The notes under the pieces are model-generated. The model did not search any database and was not told where the DNA came from. It saw only the letters and a program-made list of their open reading frames with translations. The position numbers and the translations under genes are program-made. Of a stretch of 50,596 bases of DNA, positions 10,391 to 38,999 are shown piece after piece. Every line of letters begins with the position of its first letter. The first letter of the stretch is position 1. The DNA comes from Saprospiraceae bacterium (lineage in GTDB: Bacteria > Bacteroidota > Bacteroidia > Chitinophagales > Saprospiraceae), in contig JAIYAV010000383.1 in the NCBI GenBank assembly GCA_027488855.1, forward strand, positions 1 through 50,596, written 5' to 3'.

Positions 10391-10590
10391 TAAACATGAA
10401 TCATCCCAAATTTCTTGAACATCACGAAAGCGACATTTTTTTATCACAAAGGAAAAAAAGAGGACACAAAGGACACAAAGCGAAGCGTCGTCTACGTCTA
10501 ACTTTGTGCCCTTTGTGCTTCTTTGTGCTTTCTTTGTGAAAATTATGTCGCTTTGGGTTTATTTTGAAAATTCGGGATGATTCATGTTTA
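10391..10590. repeat. 200-bp periodic-arm palindrome (CACAAAG type)
   Basis: The outer ends TAAACATGAATCATCCC (10391-10407) and GGGATGATTCATGTTTA (10574-10590) are exact inverted repeats. Inside, the left arm carries repeats of GGACACAAA (about 10445-10480) and the right arm CTTTGTGCC / CTTTGTGCTT (about 10502-10538). The spacer contains GCGAAGCGTCGTC and ends CGTCTAA. The right end includes the stop codon of the PIG-L gene. A relative with the same CGTCTAACTTTGTGCCC core lies at 34171-34263. It can fold as a large hairpin that would also end the PIG-L transcript. Confidence 0.85.
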
Positions 10591-13098
10591 TTTCCCAATC
10601 GAAATCATATTCGCAAAAAGCCGGAACGCCCCTGGAACGCCCGCAGGCAATTGCCGGAACCAGGAATAACCCGTATAAATGTAATACCCCGATCCATATT
10701 TGGCCACCAGCAAACCACCATCGCGGGCGGGTTCCCCAGGGTCATTGGACGAGAGGATGGCGTCAAAATTCGTTTTGTCCCAATCATTCGGGAAATACAA
10801 GCCACGTTCTTGCACCCAGCCGCTGAAGTCCTGAGCCGTAATTTTGTTGGGTTGATTCAGGATTTTGTGCTCAGGTTTCAGGAAACGAACCTCGGCATTT
10901 TCATCGGTCACCCGATCACGGGACACACTCAATTTATAGGGGGCCAATTCACTGGCTTCGACTTTGTACTCAAAGTTGGTATTGTATTGTACGATCAATG
11001 TGCCTCCTTTGCGGGTGTACTCCATCAAATTGGTTTGCCGATAGGACAAAGCGTCGATGGTATTGTAGGCCCGAATCCCCATGATGACGGCATCGTATTT
11101 GGCCAGGTTTTCGGGAGTGAGGTCTTTTTCACCCAGCATGTCTACTTTATAGCCGATCTGTTGCAAGCTGGCGGGAATGTCGTCTCCTGCCCCAGCTACG
11201 TACCCCAATAGTTGCCCCGCTTTTTTCAACTCGATGTGGGCTACCTTGGCTTCAGCATTGAGCAACACGGTTTGAGCCGGAATATGGTCGTACTTGATTT
11301 CGAGCATTTCCTTGCTGTAATTCTGCCCATCAATGGTCGCTACCGGGAAAATTTTTCCTTCGCTGGCCCCTGATGGAGGCGTGACCATAAATTTGATGCT
11401 CTTCTCATCACCTTTTTTGGCAATGCTGAAATTGGCCTCAGCGGGTTCCACTTTCCAGCCACTCGGCACACCCAATTTGAGGGTTCCGCTGATGTTTCCT
11501 TTCCCGGCTTTTACTTGTATGCTAACCGGCTTGGCAGCGTTGTCGGCGAATACCAATACTTTTTCACTCACTTTAGTAAACACAGGGGGAATGATCTCGA
11601 AAGGGCGGTAAATTTCTCCTTTGGCCGGGTCTGCATCCTTGTACACAATGTCCGTTTCGTAGACGATGGGAACCCCCGCGATTTTATAGTGGTAACGAGC
11701 CTTGAAAGCGCGTTGCGTTTCGGGTTTGCCCCGCATTTGTTGATCTTTCACGGCATACATGCCTGTCGTGCCAGGCTCAGTCAGCCAATAAGCGCTGGTA
11801 TAGGCCATGTCTTTGTTCAGGCGCACTTTACGCGGCCAGATCAGTCCCTGGTTGTTGGCCAACGGCTTGTTGAATACGGTATCCAGCCCAATCGGATCGA
11901 TGCTCACTTTATCCAACACCACGATGGCCGGACTGCGGTTGATGACCTCGGTACGGATGGTCATTTCGTCGCCAGGAGCAGCAGAAAAATCGGCAGTGGC
12001 TGTTTCGTGGTAAAGGCCCAAACAGGCTTTGATCACGTCTTTGATCTCCACCAATTTCACCCTTTTCCAATATCCGTCAGGCAGTTTTTCAATCAATTGA
12101 TAGGCTTTGACCAGTTCAGGTACACTGGCCGCTGGATTGTCGAAGCGAAATTTGGTTTGCACTGCCGCCAAGATGACACCGATGGGTGCCCCACCGGGTA
12201 CGCGGGTCCAGGTGGTATTGATGCCTTCAAAGAGGTCGGTTTTACTTTTGGGTTCGTCGCCTTTGATGAATTCGAGGTACTCCTGACTGGTACCCCGGGT
12301 ACCCATCGAACCGAAGCCCTGGCAACGGTGTGAACTGCGGCTTTCGGCAGCAATTTCAGTATTGGATTTGCCCAGATTGGGGAAATATCCTCCAGCTTCT
12401 ACACTGAATAGTTTAGATTTATCGGCTTTTTCAAAAGCGGCGCGGCTGCCAAAGAAAAACCAGGAGATGTTGAAAAACGTACGGCGGGGCTGCCAGGGCT
12501 TGACGTAAGCCAATTGCTCAGGATAAGCCTGGGGGTTGTTGGCCAAGTCAAATGCCTCTACCGAAAGGACGGCAGAAGCCGTGTGGTGGCCGTGGGTAGT
12601 GCCTGCGGTGCGGTGGTCAAAACGATTGATGATCACGTCGGGTTGCCATTGGCGAATGGCCCATACAACGTCGCCCAAAACATCGTTGCGATCCCAGGTT
12701 TGGAAAGTTTCAGCAGGGTTTTTGGAAAACCCAAAATCATTGGCGCGAGTGAACATCTGCTTGCCCCCATCAATACGCCGGGCCGCCAGCAGTTCCTGGG
12801 TACGCAACAAACCCAGCAGTTCCCGAATTTCGGGACCAATCAGGTTTTGTCCGCCATCCCCACGCGTAAGCGACAGGTAAGCCACATTGGCCTTGCGCTC
12901 ATTGGCAAGATAAGAGATAAACAGGGTATTTTCATCGTCGGGGTGCGCCGCAATGTACAGGGCTGAACCTAAAAAATTCAGCTTCTTGACGGCTTCATAA
13001 ATTTCCCCGGAGGTGTAACGTTTGGGTGCCTGGGCACGGATGGAAGTAAATGGAAGGCTGAATGCCAAAAGGAAAAAGAGTATACTCCAACGCTGCAT
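10588..13098 (-). CDS. Secreted PIG-L family deacetylase with C-terminal ThuA-like domain
   Basis: 836 residues from the ATG at 13098, which opens a good signal peptide (cleavage near SIRAQA). An ATG 16 codons upstream lies before the likely promoter (13136-13143) and is rejected. Residues about 30-240 are a PIG-L/LmbE domain with the zinc motif AHPDDE and THGHHTAS, which remove N-acetyl groups from GlcNAc-type sugars. Middle beta-rich domains follow (about 330-620). The C-terminal part (about 640-836; VIMGIRAYNT, GGTLIVQYNTNFEYK) looks like a GATase1/ThuA-like fold. It is the first gene of a run with the small membrane protein, symporter and deacetylase-like protein. Confidence 0.88.
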   Translation of the reverse strand: MQRWSILFFLLAFSLPFTSIRAQAPKRYTSGEIYEAVKKLNFLGSALYIAAHPDDENTLFISYLANERKANVAYLSLTRGDGGQNLIGPEIRELLGLLRTQELLAARRIDGGKQMFTRANDFGFSKNPAETFQTWDRNDVLGDVVWAIRQWQPDVIINRFDHRTAGTTHGHHTASAVLSVEAFDLANNPQAYPEQLAYVKPWQPRRTFFNISWFFFGSRAAFEKADKSKLFSVEAGGYFPNLGKSNTEIAAESRSSHRCQGFGSMGTRGTSQEYLEFIKGDEPKSKTDLFEGINTTWTRVPGGAPIGVILAAVQTKFRFDNPAASVPELVKAYQLIEKLPDGYWKRVKLVEIKDVIKACLGLYHETATADFSAAPGDEMTIRTEVINRSPAIVVLDKVSIDPIGLDTVFNKPLANNQGLIWPRKVRLNKDMAYTSAYWLTEPGTTGMYAVKDQQMRGKPETQRAFKARYHYKIAGVPIVYETDIVYKDADPAKGEIYRPFEIIPPVFTKVSEKVLVFADNAAKPVSIQVKAGKGNISGTLKLGVPSGWKVEPAEANFSIAKKGDEKSIKFMVTPPSGASEGKIFPVATIDGQNYSKEMLEIKYDHIPAQTVLLNAEAKVAHIELKKAGQLLGYVAGAGDDIPASLQQIGYKVDMLGEKDLTPENLAKYDAVIMGIRAYNTIDALSYRQTNLMEYTRKGGTLIVQYNTNFEYKVEASELAPYKLSVSRDRVTDENAEVRFLKPEHKILNQPNKITAQDFSGWVQERGLYFPNDWDKTNFDAILSSNDPGEPARDGGLLVAKYGSGYYIYTGYSWFRQLPAGVPGAFRLFANMISIGK

Positions 13099-13135
13099 AG
13101 GTGATTCGGTTTTGTTGCGGTAAAATCGAGTGCAG

Positions 13136-13143
13136 CAAATATA
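13136..13143 (-). promoter_or_regulatory. Putative -7 box of the PIG-L gene
   Basis: The minus strand reads TATATTTG, matching the Bacteroidota TAnnTTTG box. No clear TTG lies 19-22 bases upstream. The predicted start of transcription is near 13128, giving a ~30-base leader to the ATG at 13098. Confidence 0.4.
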
Positions 13144-13280
13144 CATTTTGAAATGCAGAAAGTTGGGGAAAGATGGGTATTAGGTCGTTTTGAGTGCGTA
13201 TGGGGGGAAAATGGGATGTAAATGCAAGATTTAGAAAAGAAAGCCCATGAATAACAGGCTTCCTTTCATTCAGGTAGTGG

Positions 13281-16765: not shown

Positions 16766-16782
16766 TGATTGAGAATTTCGGA

Positions 16783-16932
16783 TCTCGGATTTCGGATTTC
16801 GGATGGAGCGTTGCCTTTGGCATTTATAGCTCGTTTAGTGTTTGGTTTTCAGTTTTGAAAACCAAATTGGGATTAATCAAAATTCCTGAACGCAAGCAGT
16901 AGCCAAAATCCGCAATCTCGAAATCCAAAATG
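16783..16932. repeat. Degenerate periodic-arm palindrome (GGATTTC type)
   Basis: The left arm at 16783-16815 repeats TTTCGGA words; the right arm at about 16907-16932 (AAAATCCGCAATCTCGAAATCC) is its imperfect complement. The spacer contains an internal hairpin, GGTTTTC/GAAAACC, at about 16842-16863. Architecture matches the palindromes at 10391, 25839, 28542, 34171 and 38894 though the words differ. It lies just upstream of otsAB. Confidence 0.55.
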
Positions 16933-16965: not shown

Positions 16966-17045
16966 AACATCTTTCAACTATTTCATTCATAAAGTCCGGC
17001 TTACTCCGTCCTAATGAACATATTGTCTTTTGGGAGCAGAGGACA

Positions 17046-17187
17046 TCAATTGCCACGTGCTTTAGCGCGTGGGTCGAGGTTCATCCTCTTGATAGGGCTT
17101 TAGCCCAAGCCTTAATGCTTAAGTGAGGGCTGAAGCCCAATTCAAAGTTGCACTCCGAATCCACGAGCTAAAGCACGTGGCAATTGA
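17046..17187. repeat. Diverged copy of the RAYT-linked double-hairpin repeat
   Basis: A 142-bp unit bounded by TCAATTG and CAATTGA. Outer stem: GCCACGTGCTTTAGCGCGTGG at the left and CCACGAGCTAAAGCACGTGGC at the right. Inner elements: GGGCTTTAGCCC and GGGCTGAAGCCC. The unit matches the 143-144-bp units at 49419 and 50403 in length and layout, but the outer stem words differ on both sides so that pairing is kept. No gene lies in 16766-17220. Confidence 0.8.
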
Positions 17188-17220
17188 AACCCTCCAAGCA
17201 AAATTTGCAGTAGTGTGGGC

Positions 17221-20401: not shown

Positions 20402-20407
20402 TATCAA

Positions 20408-25832: not shown

Positions 25833-25838
25833 GTAGTG

Positions 25839-25948
25839 AAAGATGAGAGATGAAAGATGAGAGATGAAAGAGGCTACCGCAGAGACTTAGACAAGGTCAT
25901 CGTCAAAAACGCTGCGGCAGCATCTCTCATCTTTCATCTTTCATCTCT
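25839..25948. repeat. Periodic-arm palindrome (GATGAAA type)
   Basis: The left arm 25839-25866 (AAAGATGAGAGATGAAAGATG...) and right arm 25921-25948 are complementary at 26 of 28 positions. The arms consist of GATGAAA/GATGAGA words. The 54-base spacer contains CCGCAG and CTGCGG, which pair as an inner stem. It starts 7 bases above the small membrane gene start and ends 3 bases before the TonB receptor stop, so it fills the whole gap. Confidence 0.8.
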
Positions 25949-25950
25949 AA

Positions 25951-28488
25951 TTAAAAGTCCACCCTAAACCTCAAATTGATCCTCCGTGAGGTCAAATAAG
26001 TCGGGATGGCGTATTGTTGTTGAAAAATTGTTTTGATCCAGTTGTTGCCTGCCTGGTTTTGTACGTCGAGGAGGTTGAACACTTCGAGGCTGAGCCAGGA
26101 GTTGCGGGTGAAGCGCAGGTAGTGGTTCGGTTTTTTAGCCGCCATTTTGAGGCGATCCCACATCTGGATGGAAAACCCAATGTCGACCCGGTGGTAGGGG
26201 TTGAAGCGGTAGGTGTTGCGGTACACGATGTTGTTGCCGCGCAAACCGTAGGGAAGTCCACCACCCACAGTGAGGTTCAAGTGCATCTTGAAATTTTCGT
26301 TTTTCGGCAGGTAATCCTGGAAAAACATCGAGAGGTTGAAAAAACGGTCAGTTGGACGGGGTACGTCCTTGACCTGAGTTGCTTCCTCTTGTCCAATTTC
26401 CCGCACCAGGTGCTGTACGCCCAGGATGCGCTCACGAGCCCGTAGAAAGGAGAGGTTGATGTAGGATTCTGCGCCGGGCACAAACTCGCCGTTCATCCGC
26501 AAGTCCAAACCCGTGATGTAACCTTCTGAATCGTTGAGCCCCGAGTAGCGAATGCGCACGTTTTCAATCTCATACGATACCATGTCCCAGAGCGACTTGT
26601 AATAGGCCTCCCCGATCAGGCGGAATTTTTTAGGGTTTTGGCCCATGTAAAAATCGTAGGTCAGGCCCGCCACCAGGTGCAGCGATTTTTGCGCTTTGAG
26701 GTCGGTGTTGACGCTGCCGTCGGGGGCACGCATTTCGCGGTAAAAAGGTGGCTGCACGTATAAGCCCGCCGCCAGGCGATACGAAATGTCCTTTTCACCC
26801 TTTAGTGGTTTGTACAACAACTGTGCCCGTGGCGAAATCAACATTTCCTCGTTCAAATCCCAATACGTGGCCCGTACTCCCGCCGAAATCCGCCATTCAC
26901 CCTTGCCGTTGTTGCGGAAGGTGTAAGTATCTTGGAAAAAGCCATTGATGCGATTGGAACTGAGTTGGTTGCTCGTTTTGAGTACGTTGAACAGGTAAAT
27001 ATTGGCAGTATCGTAAGGAATGGAATACCCCGCTGAATCCAGGCGTTCCCATTCATTGATGCGGTCATTGATGTTTTCCTGCTGGTATTTGAGGGCCCAT
27101 TGCAGGAAGTGGCTGCTGGTGACTTCGGAGTTGAGGTGCGTGGTTTGCAACTCGATGCCGCCCCGGTGTTCCAGGTTGGTCACTTCGATGTTGAGAAAGT
27201 TGCGCACGTACAGGTGCTGGGTGCCCGTGCCCAATTCGGAAATGACATCTCCAAAGTTGCCGCTACCAAAATTGGATTCAATTTCGCGCAAGCTGTAATC
27301 CCCAATGATGTCAAAACGTTCGTTTTCATCCGAGCGGAAACGTGAACCCAGGAGTTTTAAAAACAGCGGATTGCGCTTGCGGTCGGGCAGATAAGTAAGC
27401 GAAAGTCCACCCATTGAGGTAGTAAAATCGTCAACTTCCCGGCCTTCAAATACCGTGTACAATTGCAGGGCGTAGTTGATCAAACCAAATGCGCTGGAGC
27501 CCTCTTCGGGGACAAAAGTAAATTGTGAACGGTTGTAGTTGCCCAGGAAACCGACCTGCAAATCACGGGTAATGTCGTAGGTGAGGTAAGTTTGGACGTC
27601 CGCAAAATTGGGAACGTACTCCCCTTTCACATCCAATGAACTCAACAAATAGCGGTTGGTTTTGTAGCGTGCCCCAGCGAGGTAGCGAAAACGCCGAAAA
27701 TTGTCTTTCCCGGTTTTAAAACTGCCTTCAATATGGGTAGAGCCGCCCAAAAAACTGGCCGCAGCCGAAGCCCGCAAACTATCAGGCCGTTTGTACTTGA
27801 TGTCGAGTACCGAAGATTGTTTGTCGCCGTAACGCGCCTCGAAGCCTCCAGAAGAAAAGGACAGGTCCCGCATCAGGTCGATGTTGGGAAAACTCAAACC
27901 TTCCTGTTGCCCAGCGCGAATCAATTGAGGACGGTAAATTTCAAAGTCGTTGACGTACACGAGGTTTTCGTCGTAGTTCCCGCCCCGCACGTTGTATTGA
28001 GAGCTGAGTTCCCCCCCGGTTCCACTGCTGGTGCCCAAGGCAATACTTGGCAGAATACTTTCCAGGTTGCCCGTGGTGGTGGGTAGGACTTTGAACTGAT
28101 CTACCCCTTCGCGCACCATACCCGCCGTTTCGAGTCGGCTTTCCCGCACCACAAACTCAACGTCGGAGTCGACGGGAGCCAACTCTACGTCAATTTGTTT
28201 GGCGCTGCGGGGCGGCATGGCTTTGACGTTTACAACTGATTCCTTGTAACCCACCCGGGAAAAAACCAGTTCCAGATCACGGTTGGCGGGTACATCCAGA
28301 CTATAGCGGCCATTTTCAGAGCTCGACGTATTGATTTGGGTGCCTTTTACATAGATGGTTACCAATTCAACCATCTGATTGTTGGAGCCATCTTTAACGA
28401 TTCCGGTGATGCGGGACAGGTTGTCTTCCTGAGCGAAGGCAGACAATGTCCAAAGAAAAAAAAAAAAAAAAAGTAGGATTCTTTTCAT
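25951..28488 (-). CDS. TonB-dependent outer-membrane receptor
   Basis: 845 residues from the ATG at 28488; an upstream TTG gives 5 more. The signal peptide (MKRILLFFFFFLWTLSAFAQ) is followed by a carboxypeptidase-regulatory-like beta domain (about 30-105; GIVKDGSNNQMVELVTIYVKG), a TonB plug domain (about 120-250; YNVRGGNYDENLVYVNDFEI, FEARYGDKQSSVLDI) and a 22-strand-type beta-barrel ending RINLRFRVDF. No SusD partner is adjacent, so it is not a classic polysaccharide locus. The signal-peptide Phe run is encoded by a 17-base homopolymer that could vary in length. Confidence 0.9.
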   Translation of the reverse strand: MKRILLFFFFFLWTLSAFAQEDNLSRITGIVKDGSNNQMVELVTIYVKGTQINTSSSENGRYSLDVPANRDLELVFSRVGYKESVVNVKAMPPRSAKQIDVELAPVDSDVEFVVRESRLETAGMVREGVDQFKVLPTTTGNLESILPSIALGTSSGTGGELSSQYNVRGGNYDENLVYVNDFEIYRPQLIRAGQQEGLSFPNIDLMRDLSFSSGGFEARYGDKQSSVLDIKYKRPDSLRASAAASFLGGSTHIEGSFKTGKDNFRRFRYLAGARYKTNRYLLSSLDVKGEYVPNFADVQTYLTYDITRDLQVGFLGNYNRSQFTFVPEEGSSAFGLINYALQLYTVFEGREVDDFTTSMGGLSLTYLPDRKRNPLFLKLLGSRFRSDENERFDIIGDYSLREIESNFGSGNFGDVISELGTGTQHLYVRNFLNIEVTNLEHRGGIELQTTHLNSEVTSSHFLQWALKYQQENINDRINEWERLDSAGYSIPYDTANIYLFNVLKTSNQLSSNRINGFFQDTYTFRNNGKGEWRISAGVRATYWDLNEEMLISPRAQLLYKPLKGEKDISYRLAAGLYVQPPFYREMRAPDGSVNTDLKAQKSLHLVAGLTYDFYMGQNPKKFRLIGEAYYKSLWDMVSYEIENVRIRYSGLNDSEGYITGLDLRMNGEFVPGAESYINLSFLRARERILGVQHLVREIGQEEATQVKDVPRPTDRFFNLSMFFQDYLPKNENFKMHLNLTVGGGLPYGLRGNNIVYRNTYRFNPYHRVDIGFSIQMWDRLKMAAKKPNHYLRFTRNSWLSLEVFNLLDVQNQAGNNWIKTIFQQQYAIPTYLTSRRINLRFRVDF
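28456..28472. repeat. A17 homopolymer in the receptor signal-peptide codons
   Basis: Seventeen A residues on the plus strand (T17 in the coding strand) encode the Phe run of the receptor signal peptide. Runs this long slip readily during replication; a change not divisible by three would shift the frame about ten codons in and switch the receptor off. Confidence 0.85.
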
Positions 28489-28541: not shown

Positions 28542-28657
28542 AATTAACCACGACGAAACGACGAACACGACGATTTCGCGCTTCGCGCGATTGGACGACG
28601 CTTGCGTCGTGTGATGCGGAGCCTAACGTCGTGTTCGTCGTTTCGTCGTGGTTAATT
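28542..28657. repeat. Periodic-arm palindrome (CGACGAAA type)
   Basis: Arms 28542-28572 and 28627-28657 are perfect 31-bp inverted repeats built of CGACGAA / CGAACACGA words. The 54-base spacer has inner hairpins CGCGCTTCGCGCG and GACGACGCTTGCGTCGT and ends GCCTAA. It lies between rpe and the TonB receptor start. A further small hairpin GCAGCGAAGCTGC follows at about 28664-28676. Confidence 0.9.
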
Positions 28658-29502: not shown

Positions 29503-29593
29503 TTCCAAAAAGAGCTTTGAGAGGCTATCTACATACCAAGGACATCTCGTTTGACATCCTAAAAAATTCTTTGAGAAACAAAATTTGTTTTGT

Positions 29594-30018: not shown

Positions 30019-30189
30019 TGGCTAATTCTTTGTAATTCTTTTTATTCGAGAAAAATCGTCCTATAGTATTGATCATTTTTTTGCGTTTTCCTGATCGATT
30101 TAGTTATCGTTTCCTCCCTTACTGGCTATTTGCTTTGCTCACTGAAATAAGTTGAGCTTTCTCAAAACCGATTTTTGATCAGTGCCCGT

Positions 30190-30675
30190 ATGAATACGTA
30201 TCGCTTTTTGGCTGTGTGCTTGGTATGCACGGCTTGTAGTTCCGAAGAATTGCCATTCGAAAACGAAGGCAATCCACTTTTGGCTGAAAGTAAGCAGCTC
30301 AACTGCACCAATCAACGTTACGAACATACCATTGATTCGCTCTGGGACAAAGTATCTACTCGCCTGGATCAAGTATTGCCTGATACCATGCCTCCTGGTC
30401 GCCGGGAGAACATGATCAAAATCCGCAATGCCAGCCTTTTGAAACAGTTCAAGATTTTTTATACTACCCTCGATACCCTTTCCTTAAATTTAATCACCCG
30501 TAGCGGTACAATTGACTCCCTGATTGCACTCCAGCTAATGGAACTAAAAGTGCAACGCGAGACACTTGAAAAGCGGGTGTTGGGTTTTTTGATTAAAGTG
30601 GAAAAACAAAGCCCAAAGGCAGCCACACGATGGAACAAAAAATTCCTGGAGGCAGCCGACGAGGCTTGTCAATAA
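30190..30675 (+). CDS. Small lipoprotein of unknown function
   Basis: 161 residues from the ATG at 30190; an upstream TTG is less likely. The signal (MNTYRFLAVCLVCTACSSEE) carries a lipobox with Cys16. The remainder is helical with charged residues (about 70-145 likely coiled coil) and no catalytic motif. It lies 34 bases upstream of the haloperoxidase-like gene, so the two are probably one operon. Confidence 0.7.
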   Translation: MNTYRFLAVCLVCTACSSEELPFENEGNPLLAESKQLNCTNQRYEHTIDSLWDKVSTRLDQVLPDTMPPGRRENMIKIRNASLLKQFKIFYTTLDTLSLNLITRSGTIDSLIALQLMELKVQRETLEKRVLGFLIKVEKQSPKAATRWNKKFLEAADEACQ

Positions 30676-30709
30676 ACCGATTCATCCATTCAAACAAGTT
30701 AATAATCCT

Positions 30710-32110
30710 ATGAGAAATTGGCTACACTCTCTTCGAAACCTGGCCATGATGGCCCTACTGTCACTGGCAGTGTTTACTTGCCAAAAAGATGACCCTACCG
30801 ATGTAATTGAAAATCCAACCGGAGACCCCCTGAAGGAAACTTACGAACTGGCCTTGGCCTGGAACAATGTACAATTGGATGTCGAGCGCTTTTCCAGAGG
30901 TTACCGCCCTCCCATTGCCGCGCGTACCTTAGGCTATACAGGCTTGGCGGCCTATGAAGCCATTGTCAATGGCATGTCGGGCAAATACAATTCTTTTGAT
31001 GCCTATTTTAAGGGCCTTGATATTCCAGAACCAAACGCCAAGGAGGATTACTACTGGCCAGCAGTGTTGAATGCCACTTATGCGCGTTCGATCACTCATT
31101 TTTATCCTACGGCACCTGCGGCACAACTGTTTGCGGTGTATACCATTGAGCAGGATTACAATGAAAAATTCCGCGCCACAGTTCCCAATGACGTTTATGT
31201 GCGCTCGCTGGAATATGGCCGGCAGGTAGCAGATGCTGTATTCAATTGGTCAAGAACGGATAAAGATGGCGATGGAGCGTTTTTGCGCACCAGCGACCCC
31301 AACTACGTTCCACCAACTGGCCCTGGCAAGTGGCAACCCACTTTCCCGGATTACTCTCCAGCCTTGTTGCCTTATTGGGGCAAGGTGCGCACCTTTGTAG
31401 CTGATGCTACCGATAAGTGCCCTGAGCCACTGGCATACAGCACCGACCCCAATTCCGATATTTACAAACAAGCCTTAGAGCCATTCAAACTGGTGAATCA
31501 AATCAAGGCAGGTGGAGCAGCTACTGAGCATTGGATTGCCGACTTTTGGAGTGATGATTGCGCTACGCTGACCTTTACTCCAGCAGGGCGTTTTATTGCA
31601 GTAGCCAACCAATTGATTGAAAAAGAAAAATTGAGCCTGGGTCAAGCTGTGGAAGTCTATGCTCGGATAGGTTTGGGACTTTGTGATGCAGGTATCCGTG
31701 CCTGGCACCAAAAATTCACCCACAACTACGAACGTCCAATTGATTACATCCGCGAAGTGATGCCGAACGCAAGTACCTGGAATTCGGTGATGTGCCCCGA
31801 TGGTTCTGGCCGTTATTTCTCGCCACCGTTCCCAGCGTATCCATCGGGTCACGCTACTTTTGGGGCGGTTGCTGCTGAAATTTTCTCTGGTATTTTTGGG
31901 GAAAACTATCAGTTCACCGATCGTTGCCATGAAGGCCGTACCGAATTCATCGGCAAACCTCGTTCCTTCAATAGCTTCCGCCAAATGGCTGAAGAAAATG
32001 CGTATTCCCGCTTGCCAATCGGTGTACACTTCCGCATGGATGCGACATCAGGCGTTGCATTGGGTTATGGCATTGGCAAAAAAGTGAATAGTTTGCCTTG
32101 GCGCAAATAA
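30710..32110 (+). CDS. Vanadium haloperoxidase / PAP2-family lipoprotein
   Basis: 466 residues. An N-terminal signal ends in FTCQKDD (probable lipoprotein Cys). The PAP2 phosphatase/vanadium-haloperoxidase signature is complete: K-x6-RP (KFTHNYERP, from K335), PSGH (378-381) and SR-x5-H-x3-D (SRLPIGVHFRMD, 433-444). These residues bind phosphate or vanadate and include the catalytic His. Members act as acid phosphatases or halide oxidases; which applies cannot be told. It is co-transcribed with the preceding small lipoprotein and ends at a hairpin terminator. Confidence 0.9.
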   Translation: MRNWLHSLRNLAMMALLSLAVFTCQKDDPTDVIENPTGDPLKETYELALAWNNVQLDVERFSRGYRPPIAARTLGYTGLAAYEAIVNGMSGKYNSFDAYFKGLDIPEPNAKEDYYWPAVLNATYARSITHFYPTAPAAQLFAVYTIEQDYNEKFRATVPNDVYVRSLEYGRQVADAVFNWSRTDKDGDGAFLRTSDPNYVPPTGPGKWQPTFPDYSPALLPYWGKVRTFVADATDKCPEPLAYSTDPNSDIYKQALEPFKLVNQIKAGGAATEHWIADFWSDDCATLTFTPAGRFIAVANQLIEKEKLSLGQAVEVYARIGLGLCDAGIRAWHQKFTHNYERPIDYIREVMPNASTWNSVMCPDGSGRYFSPPFPAYPSGHATFGAVAAEIFSGIFGENYQFTDRCHEGRTEFIGKPRSFNSFRQMAEENAYSRLPIGVHFRMDATSGVALGYGIGKKVNSLPWRK

Positions 32111-32125
32111 TGATTTGCTGACAAC

Positions 32126-32170
32126 AAAAAGAGGCTGTTTCGTAGAAAAATGCGAGGCAGCCTCTTTCTA
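32126..32170 (+). terminator. Terminator of the haloperoxidase operon
   Basis: AAAGAGGCTG (32128-32137) and CAGCCTCTTT (32158-32167) pair 10 of 10. It starts 15 bases past the stop codon and ends in a short T-run. Confidence 0.7.
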
Positions 32171-32282
32171 CATTGGCGCACATAAAAAAGGGCATTGCCC
32201 ATTAGATGGATGCATTGCCCGTGATTTGAAGGTATAAAAAGGGTAGATGTCACTCACCATTGAAGCTGGTGAATGCTTGAGG

Positions 32283-32521
32283 TAAAAAAAAGGGTTCCGC
32301 AATAGTATTTACGGAACCCTTCCAACGCACTCATGAGATTATAAGTCCCCAAAAATAAAGGCCTTGGGGGTGCCAAAAAATTTTACATTCAGTGGGAAAA
32401 AACAATTTGTCAGTGTTGGTCCTTGTCGTCTTAAAAAAAATTAGGTCGTCGTCGTCGTAGGAATTACAATTTGCTAGCGTGAGCCGTTTTTTATTCCAAA
32501 GGATGTTGTTTGTCCTTCTTC
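32283..32521 (-). ncRNA. Candidate small RNA or micro-ORF transcript
   Basis: A minus-strand -7 box TACATTTG (32535-32528) lies about 240 bases before a strong minus-strand terminator (hairpin 32291-32299 / 32312-32320 followed by T8). Between them the only start is an ATG at 32523 encoding just ten residues (MKKDKQHPLE). No longer ORF exists, so a small regulatory RNA is likely; no -33 TTG is at the right distance. Confidence 0.4.
32291..32320 (-). terminator. Terminator of the candidate small RNA
   Basis: AGGGTTCCG and CGGAACCCT (32291-32299 / 32312-32320) pair fully; on the minus strand eight T residues follow (complement of 32284-32291). Confidence 0.75.
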
Positions 32522-32613
32522 ATGATACAAATGTAAGCGGACGATATTGTGGAATTAAGTACAATTAACTATCTTACTGGACTAATGCAGGGGTAGTTGT
32601 TTGGTTTAAAATC

Positions 32614-32645
32614 TTGACAATCAATTTTTTAAACCCATATTTTTG
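32614..32645 (+). promoter_or_regulatory. Promoter of the 481-residue gene
   Basis: TTG (32614-32616), 21 bases, TATTTTTG (32638-32645): a good match to the Bacteroidota promoter. Transcription would start near 32652, 20 bases before the ATG. Confidence 0.6.
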
Positions 32646-32671
32646 CCTAAAAAATAATTTTTTACCTTTTT

Positions 32672-34117
32672 ATGAAGGACAGCAAACTCGTAAAATACAT
32701 CTCCGAATTGGGTCCACGCGACCGGGAACGCCTCCGTCAGTTGGTACAATCTCCTTTTTTTAACCAACATAAACCAACGATAGACTTGCTGGAATTGATC
32801 CTCAAGTCGGTTGCAAAAGGGGACGCTCCACTGAATCGGGAGAAAGTATACCAAAAGATTTTTCCGAAGAGCACTTTTGACGAACAGAAGTTGCACAATG
32901 TGATGTCGAACCTTAAAAAACTGTTTCACCGTTTTTTGGCGATAGACTACATCGAGAAACAACCTCTGTTGGAAGACTTATACACCCTGGAGGCAACTTT
33001 TGAGCGCAACCAGTTTGAACTCATGAACAATCGTGCCAAACTGCTGGAAAAACACCTGGCCGATCAAAAATATGAAGATTATTTTTTCCATCACGCGCAC
33101 TACCGGATGGATTACAACCTGGGGTATTACGGCGGCCACTATGTGGATCGAACCAAGACTGAAACCTTCCAGTCCATGCTAGATCATCTTGATCGCTCTT
33201 TTTTGATCGAAAAGCTCCGCAACTGTTGCCACTTGACCGCCAATTCGATGCAGGTCAATACCCATTATGACTTTGGACTACTTACGCCCCTGTTGAAGCA
33301 CGTTCAAACCCATTATATCGACACCCCTGCAAGCGACCAGGATTGGTCGATCCGCTTGTATTGGACCATTCTGCAAACCATGCAGGATGAAGGCAATGCA
33401 GCACACTACCTGGAACTAAAGCGGATGCTCAACGAATCCTTTGACCATTTCAGCCCCGAAGCAAAACAGGATTTGTACGGATTCGCCAGTAATTATTGCA
33501 TTCGCCGCAGTATGACGGGTGATGAAGACTATAAGCGTGAGTTATTCGATTTGTACAAGCGGGGGTTGGAGACCAAACTCCTCTTGAGCAATGGGATGAT
33601 CACCGAGTACAACTACAAAAACATTGCTACCCTGGGCGGAAACTTGCGCGAATTTGACTGGACGGAGAATTTTTTACAGGAATACAAAATGTTACTCCCA
33701 GTTTCAAAACGCGACAATGTATACAATTACAACCTGGCCTACTTGTTTTACAATAAAAAGCAGTACAAGCTGGTCTTGTCCAATCTGCTGCACGTGCAGT
33801 TCACCGATGTGATGTATTATTTGAACTCGAACTTCTTGATGTTGCGCACTTATTATGCCCTCAAGGACACCGAGGCATTGTTGTCGCTGATCGAAACTTT
33901 CCGCATTTTTGTGATGCGCAACAAAAAAATGTCGCCTACTCAGCGCAAAGAATACACGAATTTCCTGCGTTTTGCCAAAAAATTGGTGGAATTGAAGCAC
34001 CACGGAATGTACACCCGTAGTGCCTTGGAAGAGAAATTAAAAGCCCTGCGGGCAAAAATAGAGGCAACGGATAGTGTGATCAATCGGAGTTGGTTGTTGG
34101 AGGAAATGGGGGGGTAG
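32672..34117 (+). CDS. Unknown cytosolic protein, 481 residues
   Basis: No recognised domain. The chain is Leu/Tyr/Lys/Arg-rich and almost entirely helical with regularly spaced helices, suggesting a helical-repeat scaffold (TPR-like spacing is possible but no clear TPR consensus is seen). There is no signal peptide or membrane segment. The ATG at 32672 follows a clear promoter. It is flanked by the small RNA candidate and a palindromic repeat, so nothing in the context indicates the role. Confidence 0.75.
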   Translation: MKDSKLVKYISELGPRDRERLRQLVQSPFFNQHKPTIDLLELILKSVAKGDAPLNREKVYQKIFPKSTFDEQKLHNVMSNLKKLFHRFLAIDYIEKQPLLEDLYTLEATFERNQFELMNNRAKLLEKHLADQKYEDYFFHHAHYRMDYNLGYYGGHYVDRTKTETFQSMLDHLDRSFLIEKLRNCCHLTANSMQVNTHYDFGLLTPLLKHVQTHYIDTPASDQDWSIRLYWTILQTMQDEGNAAHYLELKRMLNESFDHFSPEAKQDLYGFASNYCIRRSMTGDEDYKRELFDLYKRGLETKLLLSNGMITEYNYKNIATLGGNLREFDWTENFLQEYKMLLPVSKRDNVYNYNLAYLFYNKKQYKLVLSNLLHVQFTDVMYYLNSNFLMLRTYYALKDTEALLSLIETFRIFVMRNKKMSPTQRKEYTNFLRFAKKLVELKHHGMYTRSALEEKLKALRAKIEATDSVINRSWLLEEMGG

Positions 34118-34170
34118 GAGCCTTGCTCAACCGCCCCGAAAGTTTGAAACTATTCACGACAAAGAAAATT

Positions 34171-34263
34171 AGCACCAAAAGACACAAGGGTAGCACAAAG
34201 GGCATAAAGCCTCGTCAACGTCTAACTTTGTGCCCTTTGTGCTGCCCTTGTGTCCTTTGTGCT
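34171..34263. repeat. Periodic-arm palindrome (CACAAAG type, second copy)
   Basis: The left arm (AGCACCAAAAGACACAAGGG...) at 34171-34209 and right arm (CTTTGTGCCCTTTGTGCT...) at 34226-34263 are imperfect complements. The CGTCTAACTTTGTGCCCTTT core and trailing TGTCGCTTT are shared with the copy at 10391-10590. It lies between the converging ends of the 481-residue gene and btuB and may stop both. Confidence 0.8.
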
Positions 34264-34302
34264 AAAAAAATGTCGCTTTAGACATTATTCTTTTGTGTTA
34301 TT

Positions 34303-36285
34303 TTAAAACTTCCCCTGCAAGCCCAACATAAAATTAAACCTCCGGGAATTGTACCCGTACAAGTCAAGCAACTGTTGATTGCCGAGATTCCGCAAATCCA
34401 AAAAGACTTTCAAATTCGGCTTGATCCGGTATTCCTGGTACAAATCCAGGGTCAGATAAGGATCCAATTCCACCTCGGAAGATTGGAAAGTGCTGTTGTC
34501 GAAATAATTGTCGATGCGTTTGCTGACGCTGCGTACAGATAGGCTGGCCTCCCATTTTTTACTCAAGCTGTAACCCACATTCAGGTTGACGGCGTGTTTT
34601 GGGCGACGAAGCAGGTTAAAATAGGTCGTGTCCCGGCCTGAATTTAAGGCGGTGGTCACTTTGCCATCCACATAAGTGTAGTTGAAGCCCAGCTTGAGCT
34701 TGTCCCATTGCACTTGCCCCTCAAGCTCCAAACCAGCGTCATCCTGTTGGTTAAAATTGAGGTATTGACCAAAAGGTGGCGCAGAGGTAGAGCGGAAAAC
34801 GATCACATCCTGCAAAGAACGTTGGAAATAAACGGCCCGAAACTGAGTGCTTTGATTTTTGCTGAACCATTGTGCTCCTGCCTCAAAATTGGTACCCGTT
34901 TCCGGTCTCAGTTCCTGGTTGCCATATATTGAGAAGAGTTGGTACTGCGTAGGCGCTTTAAAACTGCTCGACAAGTTGACGAAGGCTTTGAATTGTTGCT
35001 TGATCAGGATGTAGGGGTTCACATTGTAAGTCGTGAAGGTGCCAAATTCGGAGTGTTGATTAAACCTCCCCCCTACTTCAAACCCAAAAATACCAAGCTT
35101 GGACACATTTAAAGAGGCGTAGGTACTCAGGAGATTGGACTGGGTAAAATCGGCCTTCAATTCGTCCACATATTCTCCAAAATCGCTGATCGAGCGGTAC
35201 AACTGACTCATGTTTTGGCTGCGGTTTTCGATGCCCAACAGGAAGTCCATTTTTTGCCCAAACTTAACATTGCCATAGGCTTCCAAAAAATTGGATTTGC
35301 CTTGGTAGTCGGTGCGGGAAAACTTGTCGAAAGCCGTCGCCGGTACAAAAGTCGAGTCGTCTTCAAAAATCCGCTCGGTGGCGTTGTACACATAGTTTGC
35401 GGTCAAGCGCAGGTATTGTTTGTCAAAAACCAGACCTGCTCCACCCAAAAGGTTGTTGCTTGCCGTGATGTAATCCCGATCATCCACAAAAGCACCCGCG
35501 TCGATGTCCGCAGTATAGGTATTGTAGTTGAATAGGCCCTTGAGCAAAAGGCCCGGTACAATGCGCTGTTTGAGTTGCGCGCTGAGGTTATTTTCCACAA
35601 AGCCATCCTTGTCAAAACCGCCTTGCCCTTTTTCATCAAAAGCTGAGGAAAAACCCTGGCTATTCAAGTGGCTGAACTGAGCGCTGTAGCTGGTTTTTTC
35701 ACTTTGTCCACCCAGCGTGAGGTTCCCTTTCCAGGTGCCGTAACTGCCTGCTCCCAGCAAAGCTTGCAGCTCCAGTGGCTTTTGGAAACTTTTTTTGCTA
35801 ATGATGTTGATGACCCCGGCCAGTGCATCCGAGCCATACAGGGTAGATTGCCCGCCCTTCAGGATTTCGATGCGTTCGATTTGATCGATGGGGATGAGGT
35901 TCAGGTCAAAATTGTTGTTCAAATTGGCAGGGTCATTGAGGGGAATCCCATCCAGCAGAATCAGCGCATAACCGATGCCAGCCCCCCGAATGTACACATT
36001 CTGATTGGTGCCCAGGTTGTTTTGAGCCCCGTTGATGATGATTCCGACCTGGCGATTGAGCAATTCAGCCAGGGTTTGGCCGGAAGAGCGCTCCAAAACT
36101 TCGGTGCTGATCACCGTAAGTACTTTGCCGGTTTGGCTTTGTTTGCGCTCGTGTTTGGTGGCCGTGATGACCACCTGATCGAGTTGTTTGGTAGAATCTG
36201 CGGTTGTGCTGTTTTGGGAAAACAGGAATCCCGGACCTGCGCATAGACATAGCGCCAGTGCCAGCGTGTTGAATGCTTTAAACAT
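34303..36285 (-). CDS. btuB: BtuB-like TonB-dependent vitamin B12 receptor
   Basis: 660 residues from the ATG at 36285 (a second ATG 6 codons upstream is possible). A signal peptide (about 1-25, ending GFLFSQ) is followed by a plug domain: TonB-box-like LDQVVITATK, LAELLNRQVGIIINGAQN, VYIRGAGIGYALILLDGIPL and GGQSTLYGSDALAGVINIIS. The barrel ends with an aromatic residue (GLQGKF). The cobalamin riboswitch in its leader identifies the substrate as B12 or a related corrinoid. It imports corrinoids across the outer membrane using TonB energy. No B12 ABC transporter or synthesis gene is in the window. Confidence 0.93.
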   Translation of the reverse strand: MFKAFNTLALALCLCAGPGFLFSQNSTTADSTKQLDQVVITATKHERKQSQTGKVLTVISTEVLERSSGQTLAELLNRQVGIIINGAQNNLGTNQNVYIRGAGIGYALILLDGIPLNDPANLNNNFDLNLIPIDQIERIEILKGGQSTLYGSDALAGVINIISKKSFQKPLELQALLGAGSYGTWKGNLTLGGQSEKTSYSAQFSHLNSQGFSSAFDEKGQGGFDKDGFVENNLSAQLKQRIVPGLLLKGLFNYNTYTADIDAGAFVDDRDYITASNNLLGGAGLVFDKQYLRLTANYVYNATERIFEDDSTFVPATAFDKFSRTDYQGKSNFLEAYGNVKFGQKMDFLLGIENRSQNMSQLYRSISDFGEYVDELKADFTQSNLLSTYASLNVSKLGIFGFEVGGRFNQHSEFGTFTTYNVNPYILIKQQFKAFVNLSSSFKAPTQYQLFSIYGNQELRPETGTNFEAGAQWFSKNQSTQFRAVYFQRSLQDVIVFRSTSAPPFGQYLNFNQQDDAGLELEGQVQWDKLKLGFNYTYVDGKVTTALNSGRDTTYFNLLRRPKHAVNLNVGYSLSKKWEASLSVRSVSKRIDNYFDNSTFQSSEVELDPYLTLDLYQEYRIKPNLKVFLDLRNLGNQQLLDLYGYNSRRFNFMLGLQGKF

Positions 36286-36410
36286 GGTTAAAAATTGTGG
36301 CATACCCCTAGTCTTTCCATACCGGAAATCAGCTTAGAGATGGCCATAAGCAATAAGGTGACAAGCACTCGACCCAAACCCGTCCGTCCGCGGGTGTCGG
36401 CTAAGGATTA

Positions 36411-36613
36411 TCAGCGGCAGGTCTCCTGGCTCGTTTCATTGCCGCCAGCCTTCCCGGAGTTGAGATTTGCTCCAGTGGCCAGAAAAGGGCAGCAACTAAA
36501 AAGGCTGTGCGCACAGCCTGATCGAAACTTACAGTTGCGGGGACAGCTCCGGTTTTGCACCGGATTCCCTATTAAGCCATGCACCACCCGCCGGGTGGTA
36601 TGGCACCGTAGAT
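36411..36613 (-). promoter_or_regulatory. Cobalamin riboswitch
   Basis: Read on the minus strand, conserved elements appear in order: CCGGTGCAAAACCGG, the CCCCGCAACTGTAA stretch (complement at about 36528-36545), CCACTGGAG, GGGAAGGCTGGC and GCCAGGAGACCTGCC (complement of 36416-36430). It lies about 125 bases upstream of btuB, which it should turn off when B12 is abundant. Confidence 0.93.
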
Positions 36614-36934
36614 CGGGGGTAAAGGTAGGGAATGGAGGGAAATTTGGCAAATAAAAAAATACGCTGTACGTTAAAAAGAACGGGCGAAAATCGTATAAAA
36701 TAGTACTCTAAACCCGCTTGTCAAGTGCCACACCTGAACAACTTCAAAATTTGTAAATCATAGACTTATTACAGCGATACACTTGCGCCAGCGGGTACTT
36801 TTTTTGTCCACTTTCTTGAAATATTATTTGCGTATCATTCGTTTTGTATTTATCTTAGAGATGTTTTTACGATCTATTTTTCGAGCGTTCAACTATAACT
36901 AAACCATATTTTTCATTTTAAAACAACTTCAGTT

Positions 36935-37582
36935 ATGGCAATCGTTTCAAATTTTGAGTTACTACTCAATCGCATCGCCAGTGGTGGCGACCCAAACCTA
37001 CCCGCTAACGTACTGTTTCGGCGCGTCGTTCAAGGTTATTTCCTCACTATTTCAAACCCAAACCCGACTACCATCACGTTTCAGTTGCGTTTCACCACCA
37101 ATGCGGCCACCAACACCGATTTTGGTGACCCAAACAACGCTTGGTATCGTGGCTTTGTCGGTTCTAGTGTCGGCAACGCGAATCACGTTTTGGTCGTAAA
37201 CCGCGAACCGGACAGTAACGCCTTAGTGAGCAACATTCAACAAGGCTTTTTGCCTACCGCCACAGTATTTGGGGCCGCTCGGCAATTCGTCCCCGCTGCG
37301 CCTTTGGCAACAATTCCGATCTTAGGCGGCCAAACGTTCTCAATCGCCCTGTTGCCCAACACCAGCAATCCTTTGGTTTTGGGCACCGCAAACTTAGCCA
37401 TTCGAGGCTATGCAGAAATTTTGGTGACCCCTGCGGTAAATCTAGACCTTATTGTCTCGGCTGAACACCGTGGTACTTTCCTAGACAACGACTACCCTTC
37501 GGATTCTGCAGAATCATTGGATTTTGATCAAATCGCCTATGCTTTGCCGATGTTCAGTGGCGGCTCTCAGGTTAAAGTGTAA
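36935..37582 (+). CDS. Unknown beta-rich protein, 215 residues
   Basis: No recognised family. The chain is rich in Asn, Thr, Ala, Val and Phe with alternating hydrophobic residues, predicting a beta-sandwich. Charge is low and there is no signal peptide, membrane helix or catalytic motif. Segments such as SNPNPTTITFQLRF suggest a structural or adhesin-like fold. A hairpin terminator follows at 37701-37739. The preceding 36626-36934 gap shows no clear promoter. Confidence 0.65.
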   Translation: MAIVSNFELLLNRIASGGDPNLPANVLFRRVVQGYFLTISNPNPTTITFQLRFTTNAATNTDFGDPNNAWYRGFVGSSVGNANHVLVVNREPDSNALVSNIQQGFLPTATVFGAARQFVPAAPLATIPILGGQTFSIALLPNTSNPLVLGTANLAIRGYAEILVTPAVNLDLIVSAEHRGTFLDNDYPSDSAESLDFDQIAYALPMFSGGSQVKV

Positions 37583-37700
37583 TTTTTTTAAGCACTTATC
37601 TGGTATTAATTTAGTCTATTTTCGCAGTAACGTGTTGTAAATAAACACTTTATTGCAATAGCCAATTAACACATTGTGCTTATAAAAATCCTTTGTAATT

Positions 37701-37739
37701 GAAAACGGTTGATATCTGTATGGATGTCAGCCGTTTTTC
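37701..37739 (+). terminator. Terminator of the 215-residue gene
   Basis: GAAAACGGTTGATATC (37701-37716) and GATGTCAGCCGTTTTTC (37723-37739) pair with two G-U pairs and end in a T5 run, about 120 bases past the stop. Confidence 0.65.
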
Positions 37740-37766
37740 TGCTATTGAAGCCGAAGCAAAAAATAA

Positions 37767-37946
37767 AAAGGAATCGAGCAGGGAATCGAATTGGGTGAAA
37801 CCAAGCTCAAGGAAGAGTTGCTCAAACATGCTGTACCTGAGCTCGTACAATTAGGCCTAGAAGCGGAAAGAATTGCAGCGATTTTGGATTTGGAGGTAGA
37901 GGCAGTTCGAAGGGTGATGGAAAAGGGTGTACAAGAAACCCTTTGA
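37767..37946 (+). pseudogene. C-terminal remnant of an Rpn/PD-(D/E)XK transposase-like gene
   Basis: A 59-codon frame without a start codon, preceded by an in-frame TAA at 37764. The product (GIEQGIELGETKLKEELLKH ... AERIAAILDLEVEAVRRVMEK) matches the Gly-Ile-Glu-repeat and terminal helix pair seen at the end of Rpn-family recombination-promoting nucleases. The nuclease part is gone, so this is a fossil. Neighbouring 37947-38024 holds nothing else. Confidence 0.65.
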
Positions 37947-38024
37947 AATACCTTTATTCTGGCATCTTATCACAAAGATAAACTGATGCGTGCGTGGTTT
38001 TGAGCAATGAGTGATTCAAAATAC

Positions 38025-38774
38025 CTATTGATACCCATGCTTTTTCCAAATCTTCTTAGCTTCCGCCGAAAACAAAAAGTCAAAAAACCTGCGACTCGCC
38101 TCTGGGTGCTGCTTTTGCCCATAGCTCGTAATCACCGCCGCCTGACGAATCGGCTCATGGTGTTTGGGATCAATGTCTACCCATTTGCCTTTGCCGCGCA
38201 TCTCTTCAGCCATCACCATTGACTTGGCAGTCAGCCCCACTTCACAGGCACCAGCCAGGATGTATTGGGTGGTTTGGGCTATACTTTCGCCATACACCAA
38301 CTTCGATTCCACTTTTGCATACAGCCCTTTTTTCTTCAGCCATTCAATCGCCGCTCGTCCATAAGGGGCCGTTCGGGGGTTGGCCACTGCAATTTTGTTT
38401 ACCCGAGCGTCCAACAGTATTTTACCATCTGGCTTAAGCACCAGCTCCGACTGAGTGCTCCACAATACCAGGGTGCCTTCGGCATACACCTTGGGGGCAT
38501 TGGCCGTCATCCCAGCTTTTTGCAGGCCTTGGGGATATTCTTCATCGGCGGATACAAACACGTCAAAAGGAGCGCCTTGGGTGATTTGGGTGCTCAATTT
38601 GCCGGAGGAACTGTAGTTGATGTCCACCTTCAGTTTGGTTTTGGCTTCAAAGGCTTTTTCAATGTCTTCGAGGGCGAAACGGACATTGGCGGCGGCGGCC
38701 ACGGAGAGGTCTTGGGCTTGTAGGGGGAGAGCAAAGAAAAATAAGGCAGCAATAATAGAGGGCAGACATTTCAT
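38025..38774 (-). CDS. modA: Molybdate ABC transporter substrate-binding protein
   Basis: 249 residues. A signal peptide (MKCLPSIIAALFFFALPLQA) is followed by the ModA fold: LSVAAAANVRFALEDI, YSSSGKLSTQITQGAPFDVFVSADEEYP, TLVLWS and ANPRTAPYGRAAIEWL. These bind molybdate or tungstate in the periplasm. The ModB permease and ModC ATPase are not next to it; the following sequence is an Rpn remnant. A ModE-like regulator lies upstream beyond a palindromic repeat. Confidence 0.93.
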   Translation of the reverse strand: MKCLPSIIAALFFFALPLQAQDLSVAAAANVRFALEDIEKAFEAKTKLKVDINYSSSGKLSTQITQGAPFDVFVSADEEYPQGLQKAGMTANAPKVYAEGTLVLWSTQSELVLKPDGKILLDARVNKIAVANPRTAPYGRAAIEWLKKKGLYAKVESKLVYGESIAQTTQYILAGACEVGLTAKSMVMAEEMRGKGKWVDIDPKHHEPIRQAAVITSYGQKQHPEASRRFFDFLFSAEAKKIWKKHGYQ

Positions 38775-38893
38775 ACAAAGTCATCTTGTTTTTTAAAAGA
38801 ACCGCAGGCTCCTTTTCAGTTGCGAAAAGAAGCCCCGGTTGCCGTATATAACCTAATATCAATAGACAAATTTGGATTTGGCTTACTGCTTCA

Positions 38894-38999
38894 CTAAGGT
38901 GTTCTTAGGTGCCTAAGGTGGTTCAAATTAAAAAATCTAAAGTTTTCAGAACCAACTAGGCTCATTTTGAACCACCTTAGGCACCTTAGAACACCTTAG
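38894..38999. repeat. Periodic-arm palindrome (CTAAGGTG type)
   Basis: Arms 38894-38927 and 38966-38999 are complementary at 33 of 34 positions and built of CTAAGGTG / CTTAGGTG words. The 38-base spacer is AT-rich. It lies between the ModE-like gene and modA and may end or insulate the transcript. Confidence 0.85.

Follow-up and report, generated by a model that had tools for sequence, protein, structure and literature searches.

Dispersed intergenic palindromes with differing tandem words in a Saprospiraceae genome and its relatives of the same genus

Word palindromes between the genes of the window

The DNA analyzed here, a stretch of 50,596 nucleotides that we refer to as the window, is contig JAIYAV010000383.1 (C248) of the Saprospiraceae bacterium assembly GCA_027488855.1 (G000), an 8.37-Mb genome in 422 contigs. 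Between its genes lie long palindromes whose arms are inverted arrays of a short tandem word, and these word palindromes are the subject of this analysis (Table 1). They belong to dispersed families of approximately 80 to 200 bp, each with its own tandem word, that lie between genes, and orthologous gaps within the genus tend to be occupied together, often by different words. Four genomes of the same genus besides G000 (G001-G004) were among the 40 genomes searched; G004 is the nearest relative used, roughly 90% identical to G000, and G002 is a relative in 4 contigs, one of them 8,371,686 bases long.

A sequence-only reading of the window had named six palindromes and assigned them to a single plan. 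Five of these places were returned by an inverted-repeat search of the window, with arms of 71 nt and a 70% match at 10391, 50 nt and 82% at 25843, 34 nt and 91% at 34176, and 34 nt and 97% at 38894; the place at 16783-16932 was not returned by this search. At each of the six, a tandem-repeat search (TRF) found a short-period array in one arm or in both. The palindrome near 16783 has a unit of 7 bases and a clear orthologous version in the corresponding gap of G004 (score 23). RNA folds of four of the window palindromes gave z-scores of −9.2 to −12.4. The six places therefore hold five clear palindromes and a degenerate sixth, but their supposed single architecture is better split, by eye, into 2 types: 7- to 8-base words near stop codons, and CAC-plus-word triplets farther away. 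Membership in a known structured RNA family was rejected, as an Rfam search of the window at gathering score gave just a cobalamin riboswitch.

Table 1. Features of the window. Positions count from the first base of the stretch.
Feature	Position	Strand	Evidence
CACAAAG-word palindromic element, 200 bp, with ~19-nt outer terminal inverted repeats (AAACATGAGTCATCCCGAA-like)	10391..10590		Inverted-repeat and own-genome searches
Degenerate ATTTCGG-word palindrome; left array 16775-16804, right array ~16903-16931	16775..16931		TRF and by eye
REP-type inverted pair (CCACGAGCTAAAGC..), no word palindrome	17039..17194		Inverted-repeat search, G004 comparison
ATGARAG-word palindrome, touching the stop codon of an 850-aa receptor gene	25837..25951		Inverted-repeat search, TRF, RNA fold
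Core hairpin GCTACCGCAG..CTGCGG(T/C)AGC, also present in elements with other words	25873..25921		Pattern scans
CGACGAA-word palindrome with 31/31 arms, lying between rpe and a gene for a TonB-type receptor	28542..28657		Inverted-repeat search, RNA fold
CACAAAG-word palindrome between convergent genes	34171..34263		Inverted-repeat search, RNA fold
Cobalamin riboswitch, adjoining the receptor gene 34303-36303	36399-36625	-	Rfam match
CTAAGGTG-word palindrome, arms 33/34; word and spacer the same in G004	38894..38999		Inverted-repeat search, orthologous gap
REP-type inverted pair flanking the Y1 transposase gene	49405..49576		Inverted-repeat search
IS200/IS605-family Y1 transposase (RAYT-like), 160 aa	49689..50171	-	REP_Tyr_transpos model matched below its cut-off
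REP-type inverted pairs, other side of the Y1 transposase gene	50280..50586		Inverted-repeat search

Dispersed families and their abundance

Own-genome searches covered five of the six places (34171 was not queried by itself), and all five proved to be members of dispersed multi-copy families. They returned 80 (10391), 69, 87, 94, and 35 match rows, which count both strands and single arms, with the best 40 candidates scored per search (40 of 168 for 10391), and are not copy numbers. The ATTTCGG query matched its own genome mostly arm by arm. Several contigs start inside repeat copies (L020-L022, L043, and L044), so that copy numbers taken from the assembly are probably underestimates. An assembly artefact is an unlikely source of the palindromes because the same pattern is present in the 4-contig relative G002.

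The families differ in what they keep. Of 25 aligned copies of the ~200-bp family of 10391, 7 have recognizable outer terminal inverted repeats on both sides and 13 on one side only, with up to 5 mismatches allowed. In the CTAAGGTG family, all 21 of 21 copies could be parsed; their arms are on average 94% identical and their spacers 60%, compared with 52% for shuffled spacers. The ATGARAG family, viewed by eye in 27 copies, has a kept core hairpin with word numbers that vary to the left and right, seemingly independently. A single drifting family is ruled out by the unrelated words and unrelated spacers. The string CCAAAGCGACATTTT was seen outside the CACAAAG arms in the 10391 family and inside the spacer of some CTAAGGTG copies (L078, L084, and L090), in both cases just before a CAC-word array.

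Palindromes with a score of at least 18 numbered 68 in 447,494 bases of G000 (the window, C195, and 80 kb each of C250, C142, C285, and C85) and 52 in 400,000 bases of G002, with none in the dinucleotide shuffles of either genome (one shuffle per sequence). This corresponds to about one long palindrome per 6 to 8 kb in the genus, many of them made of periodic words. Under a strict rule of autocorrelation of at least 0.6 in both arms, 18/68 palindromes in G000 and 25/52 in G002 are periodic, and a word list compiled by eye assigns words to 42/68 and 44/52, respectively; those outside the list include REP-type (repetitive extragenic palindromic) pairs and other stems. Single-copy sequences without enrichment, in which the same word decays in place, would have been difficult to reconcile with the sequence-only reading; what was found instead are multi-copy families, enrichment over shuffles, and differing words in orthologous gaps.

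Tandem arrays in these genomes come overwhelmingly as inverted pairs. Intergenic arrays with a period of 6 to 11 had an inverted partner within 220 bases in 52/58 cases in G000, 69/80 in G002, and 24/27 in G004 (145/165 in total). No direct partner was found past the first 20 bases, and no inverted partner in shuffled flanks. When arrays were instead paired with the flanks of other arrays, 22/348, 37/480, and 10/162 were partnered in the same 3 genomes (69/990 in total). For arrays inside called open reading frames (ORFs), the counts were 3/8, 10/16, and 1/3.

Word inventories, which count motif places whether palindromic or otherwise, differ between the species. GGTTCG occurs at 27 places in 620 kb of G002, at 2 in 447 kb of G000, and at none in 163 kb of G004, while in the same samples CTAAGGTG occurs at 8 places in G000, 2 in G004, and none in G002; the 3 places of ATGARAG among the samples counted are all in G000. 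Across the order, CACAAAGGACACAAAG was found in 13/149 genomes, with 81 hits in G000 itself and 1 to 6 in each of the other 12 (a reversed control pattern gave 2 hits). Among ten listed loci of this motif outside the genus, one (L344) had a palindrome with a score of at least 18, and none reached that score in 26 loci (L167-L192, 93 kb) from outside the genus.

One core hairpin with several words

The core hairpin of the ATGARAG palindrome links elements whose words differ. A contig scan for GCTACCGCAG..CTGCGGTAGC returned at least 80 loci; among the matches listed, 66 came from 2 metagenome-assembled genomes (MAGs; JAIXOO and JAAFHQ) and one (L218) from a rumen Bacteroidaceae MAG. In these listed matches, and mostly in the 2 MAGs, inverted arrays lie on either side of the core, and their words are of about seven types (GGTTGAG/GGTTTAG, TTTAGAAGTGA, AAAAGTG, AAAAATG, ATGAATG, GACGAAT, and AAAAGCG). 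In G000, it occurs with at least three, namely ATGARAG, GTTGAR, and GTGAAAA. The exact core pattern was present in one of 395 genomes of the phylum, G000 itself, at 59 places, and in none of the other 394, a sample in which the same-genus genomes G001-G004 are not listed and for which inclusion of the 2 MAGs could not be told. A scan of viral contigs gave 3 core loci, none of which was listed with a palindrome of score 18 or more.

The first six bases outward from the core agree on both sides in 62/72 MAG cores among the matches listed and in 21/36 cores of G000. Palindromes selected for their arm match give a biased arm comparison (their own partner was best or tied in 49/69), and a core-anchored comparison was used instead, excluding 13 of the 80 listed loci that lacked word arms by eye. 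Beyond the first word, the arms of MAG cores match better within a locus (0.76) than between loci with the same word (0.60; n = 49, p = 2e-7).

Position relative to genes

Convergent gaps are favored in both genomes sampled. In G000, palindromes occupy 21/57 convergent gaps (37%), 36/202 tandem gaps (18%), and 4/53 divergent gaps (8%), and in G002, 26/80 (32%), 37/256 (14%), and 11/77 (14%). A palindrome edge falls within 15 bases of a gene 3' end in 27/80 cases in G000 and 46/90 in G002, and within 15 bases of a 5' end in 8/44 and 11/62. Genes here are simple ORF calls. No palindrome lay inside a called ORF by the rule used; other margins put three G002 palindromes inside ORFs, so that the gene calls there are soft. 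A promoter and terminator scan of 25001-40000 gave 16 and 22 sites, compared with 18.2 and 19.2 in shuffles.

Occupancy and replacement in orthologous gaps

Orthologous gaps were compared systematically in three blocks (the window, C250, and C195), counting any palindrome with a score of at least 13, REP-type pairs included, and without matching gap length. Among 65 gaps shared with G004, 12 were occupied in both species, 4 in G000 only, 3 in G004 only, and 46 in neither (Fisher p = 1.6e-7); the 49 gaps shared with G002 divided into 10, 3, 6, and 30 (p = 1.8e-4). Convergent gaps were co-occupied in 6/6 cases with G004 and 6/7 with G002. The association was also present in tandem gaps alone, at 6/3/3/35 with G004 (p = 5e-4) and 4/1/5/22 with G002 (p = 0.015). 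Divergent gaps held a palindrome in 1/12 cases with G004, and in one case per species among 10 with G002. Shuffling each gap three times, for up to 195 shuffles per side with G004 and 147 with G002, never gave a positive.

The sequence-only reading had proposed a comparison of orthologous gaps, and those that are co-occupied often hold different words. Among the 12 gaps co-occupied with G004, four hold unrelated words (10259, 34118, 42752, and 66523, the last with a REP-type palindrome called in G000 and a CACAAAG palindrome beside it), and three hold changed but related words (28933, 34338, and 50656). Four agree, namely 38775, 60986, 31427, and a short non-periodic stem at 46424, and one (16766) is ambiguous, having ATTTCGG arrays in both species and a REP-type pair called in G000. 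None of the 10 gaps co-occupied with G002 agree, and no pair has more than 1/3 of its 6-mers in common; six are unrelated (10259, 28504, 34118, 60986, 28933, and 16766, the last with the same REP-type caveat), three are related (31427, 34338, and 42752), and one (16450) is a pair of short stems.

Gaps inspected by hand illustrate the pattern. The gap at 28503-28722 carries CGACGAA in G000, GGTTCC in G004, and GGTTCG in G002, and this pairing of GGTTCC in G004 with GGTTCG in G002 was found at two shared gaps. At 34117-34303, the CACAAAG palindrome of G000 corresponds to a CTAAGGTG palindrome in G004 and a CTGGTCACC palindrome in G002. ATGARAG in the gap 25572-25951 corresponds to a AGCGAATAGCTAAA palindrome in G002, and CTAAGGTG occupies the gap 38774-39119 in both G000 and G004. 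By eye, the arrays of gaps 42752 and 34338 start at the stop codon itself or a few bases from it in each of the three species. In most word-changed gaps that allowed comparison, the spacers are unrelated as well; between G000 and G004, spacers were kept at 31427 and 38775, where the word was kept too.

The gap at C195:34338 behaves differently. Its word changes from GTGAAAA in G000 to ATGAAAA in G004 in all units of both arms, the G004 spacer matches that of G000 only when inverted (z 5.1; 0/200 shuffles as good), and the same gap in the 3 species holds GTGAAAA, ATGAAAA, and GCGAAWA. An inverted spacer together with an all-unit change of word fits what template switching would leave.

Three other gaps are of separate interest. 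At C250:65406-65484 of G000, only one arm of a GTTGAG-type palindrome seems to be left, in a gap where the palindromes of G004 and G002 are complete and differ in their cores; this looks like a collapse to half. At 13937-14243 of C250 (L280-L283), a CGACG palindrome lies within a larger element that has outer hairpins and inverted ends and is absent from G004. A repeat family of ~160 bp with many matches in G004 and G002 lies in a divergent gap at L297:13402-13559, and the aligned G004 flanks are about 5 bases apart there.

REP-type pairs and the Y1 transposase

The window also contains a Y1 transposase gene, one of 13 in G000. From 49405 to 50586, long inverted REP-type pairs (CCACCAGCTAAAGCTGG / GGGCTTTAGCCC) lie on both sides of this gene, and other Y1 genes are accompanied by different hairpin classes; at least 6 of the 13 (L151 and L153-L157) are flanked by REP-type inverted repeats. 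Mobilization of the word palindromes by such a RAYT (REP-associated tyrosine transposase) finds no support from local association in the Y1 gene flanks scanned. By eye, the GGTAGC of the core is paired; the unpaired GTAG or CGTC tag of RAYT-mobilized hairpins was looked at in this way only. A further REP-type pair, within 16983-17218, has no counterpart in G004, whose aligned flanks in the orthologous gap are only about 5 bases apart.

Comparison with known repeat systems

No description of palindromes with interchangeable words was found in the literature searched, which included searches for the word strings and for Haliscomenobacter repeats and whose coverage largely leaves out subscription journals. 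The short tandemly repeated repetitive (STRR) sequences of cyanobacteria are lineage-specific intergenic tandem arrays of 7-base words, like the repeats described here, but direct ones, whereas 145/165 arrays here have an inverted partner. The same comparison holds for the TAACTGA heptamer direct repeats, which are found in Beggiatoaceae, in Cyanobacteria, and in part of the Bacteroidetes; in BOGUAY they lie mostly upstream of start codons, and a single case among 170 sets is inverted (PMC4679880; this and the following papers are cited for the sections that bear on the comparison).

REP, BIME, and REPIN sequences with their RAYT are dispersed intergenic palindromes, mostly of unidirectional and convergent gaps, with species-specific families and hairpins in RNA (PMC3733652). 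The word palindromes resemble them in being dispersed and intergenic, in having families that differ by species, and in their predicted RNA hairpins; they differ in being ~80 to 200 bp long and not 20- to 40-bp units, in having arms that are tandem word arrays, in the several words around one core, and in the lack of a RAYT link in the flanks scanned (PMC3733652). Miniature inverted-repeat transposable elements (MITEs) are likewise short and intergenic, and the minisatellite MITE BrickBuilt of Porphyromonas gingivalis also combines tandem repeats (a 23-nt array) with small inverted ends; in the word palindromes, by contrast, the two arms consist of word arrays inverted to each other, with a word that varies (PMC4596501). 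Template switching at quasipalindromes homogenizes the arms of inverted repeats and inverts spacers, as at C195:34338, although the sections cited describe it as a mutation process and not as a genome-wide source of word palindromes (PMC8604942). Inverted repeats are over-represented between genes in nearly all bacteria, but that survey, in the part cited, treats short generic patterns, with no periodic words or replacement (PMC4060949).

How the palindromes may arise and be replaced

The account that we prefer, with about even confidence, is that palindromes favor certain intergenic sites, often immediately following a stop codon, and replace one another there, with slippage and template switching acting inside the elements. 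Each family would spread as a short non-autonomous element, MITE-like or REP-like. At the 3' end of a gene, a long hairpin would be tolerated and would probably be of use; it would form in RNA transcribed from either strand and might protect 3' ends or take part in Rho-dependent end formation, as opposed to intrinsic termination. Since long palindromes are unstable, old occupants would be lost and replaced by whichever family is active in that lineage. Within one element, slippage would make the tandem word, and hairpin template switching would copy one arm onto the other, which would maintain the pairing between the arms and let a new unit variant spread through both; these 2 processes are probably what makes and homogenizes the arms. 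Replacement of dispersed elements by one another accounts for most word differences, because spacers also change in most comparable replaced gaps.

Several observations weigh against this account. Regarding mobility, no word palindrome was found beside the 13 Y1 genes (11-base exact seed, flanks of up to 1.5 kb, some cut by contig ends), and no mobilizing enzyme was identified, Y1 being the only one searched for. A 4- to 5-bp repeat is possible, by eye, as a target-site duplication at C250:13937 relative to the G004 gap, and no duplication was established for the word families. GGTTCC is present at 5 places in G000, 4 in G004, and 4 in G002, and so is not specific to G004. Regarding template switching, the inverted spacer is a single locus, and the arms of G000 cores match as well between loci (0.87) as within them (0.88; n = 16, p = 0.42). 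Regarding a role at 3' ends, the divergent gaps of G002 are occupied as often as its tandem gaps, which weakens it, and the palindromes are not intrinsic terminators, as runs of T are not in excess (T5 near 9/138 arm ends in G000 and 16/172 in G002, against a background of 8% in both). In the light of these last 2 observations, the role is inferred from position only. Co-occupancy itself may reflect safe insertion sites instead of function.

This last point leads to the strongest of the alternatives, which we consider unlikely but ahead of the others that follow: the palindromes could be MITE- or REP-like insertions from several widely inserting families, with neither a role nor a renewal mechanism. 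Selection would spare only those in harmless gaps, so that every lineage is hit again in a small set of safe places. The terminal inverted repeats of the 10391 family, the CGACG element missing from the G004 gap at C250:13937, the scarcity of palindromes in divergent gaps of the orthologous set, and the species-dependent word inventories are all consistent with it. Such insertions do not readily account for co-occupancy among tandem gaps alone (gap length not being matched), for the predominance of inverted array pairs, for the several words around one core, or for the word change with an inverted spacer.

The sequence-only reading had held that a templated mechanism building or renewing palindromes was implied. 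The inverted array pairs, the one core with several words, and the inverted spacer with an all-unit change fit such a mechanism, but the change of spacers in most comparable replaced gaps and the indistinct arm comparison in G000 cores make it possible and not implied. A palindrome-renewing process at favored gaps, in which words are written or copied onto both hairpin arms from a template, changing every unit but preserving the site and in some cases also the core or spacer, appears doubtful to us; it is left open because of the core with about seven words, the 145/165 inverted pairs, the three-species gap at C195:34338 with its inverted spacer between two of them, and the occurrence of GGTTCC in one species and GGTTCG in another at two shared gaps.

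A dedicated word-writing system, in which a templated enzyme adds words outward from both ends of the core hairpin and a changed template means a changed word, is more improbable still. It would explain the variety of words around one core, seen mostly in the 2 MAGs among the matches listed and with at least three words in G000, as well as the agreement of the first six bases in most MAG cores among those matches, the apparently independent unit numbers left and right in the ATGARAG family, and the contrast of GGTTCC with GGTTCG at shared gaps. Against this, a single genome contains many words side by side, GGTTCC is shared by all three species, the junctions match in only 21/36 G000 cores, and the spread of elements explains most cases. 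Purely local evolution by slippage and template switching at each gene-end hairpin, without mobility, would suit C195:34338 and the kept words and spacers at 31427 and 38775, but it is very improbable given words and cores common to tens of loci in one genome and unrelated words and spacers at several replaced gaps, and the dispersed families already refute it as a complete explanation.

What the sequence-only reading noticed in the window is real and larger than it described: palindromes with interchangeable words are common to species of one genus. Hairpins of different words in the same gap are unusual. The word palindromes offer a direct handle on whether REP-like repeats continue to arise de novo, which the literature cited leaves open (PMC3733652). 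With words that turn over and occupancy that is strongly correlated, the genus provides a natural experiment in the origin, lasting symmetry, and replacement of palindromes, through which their building and renewal can be studied.

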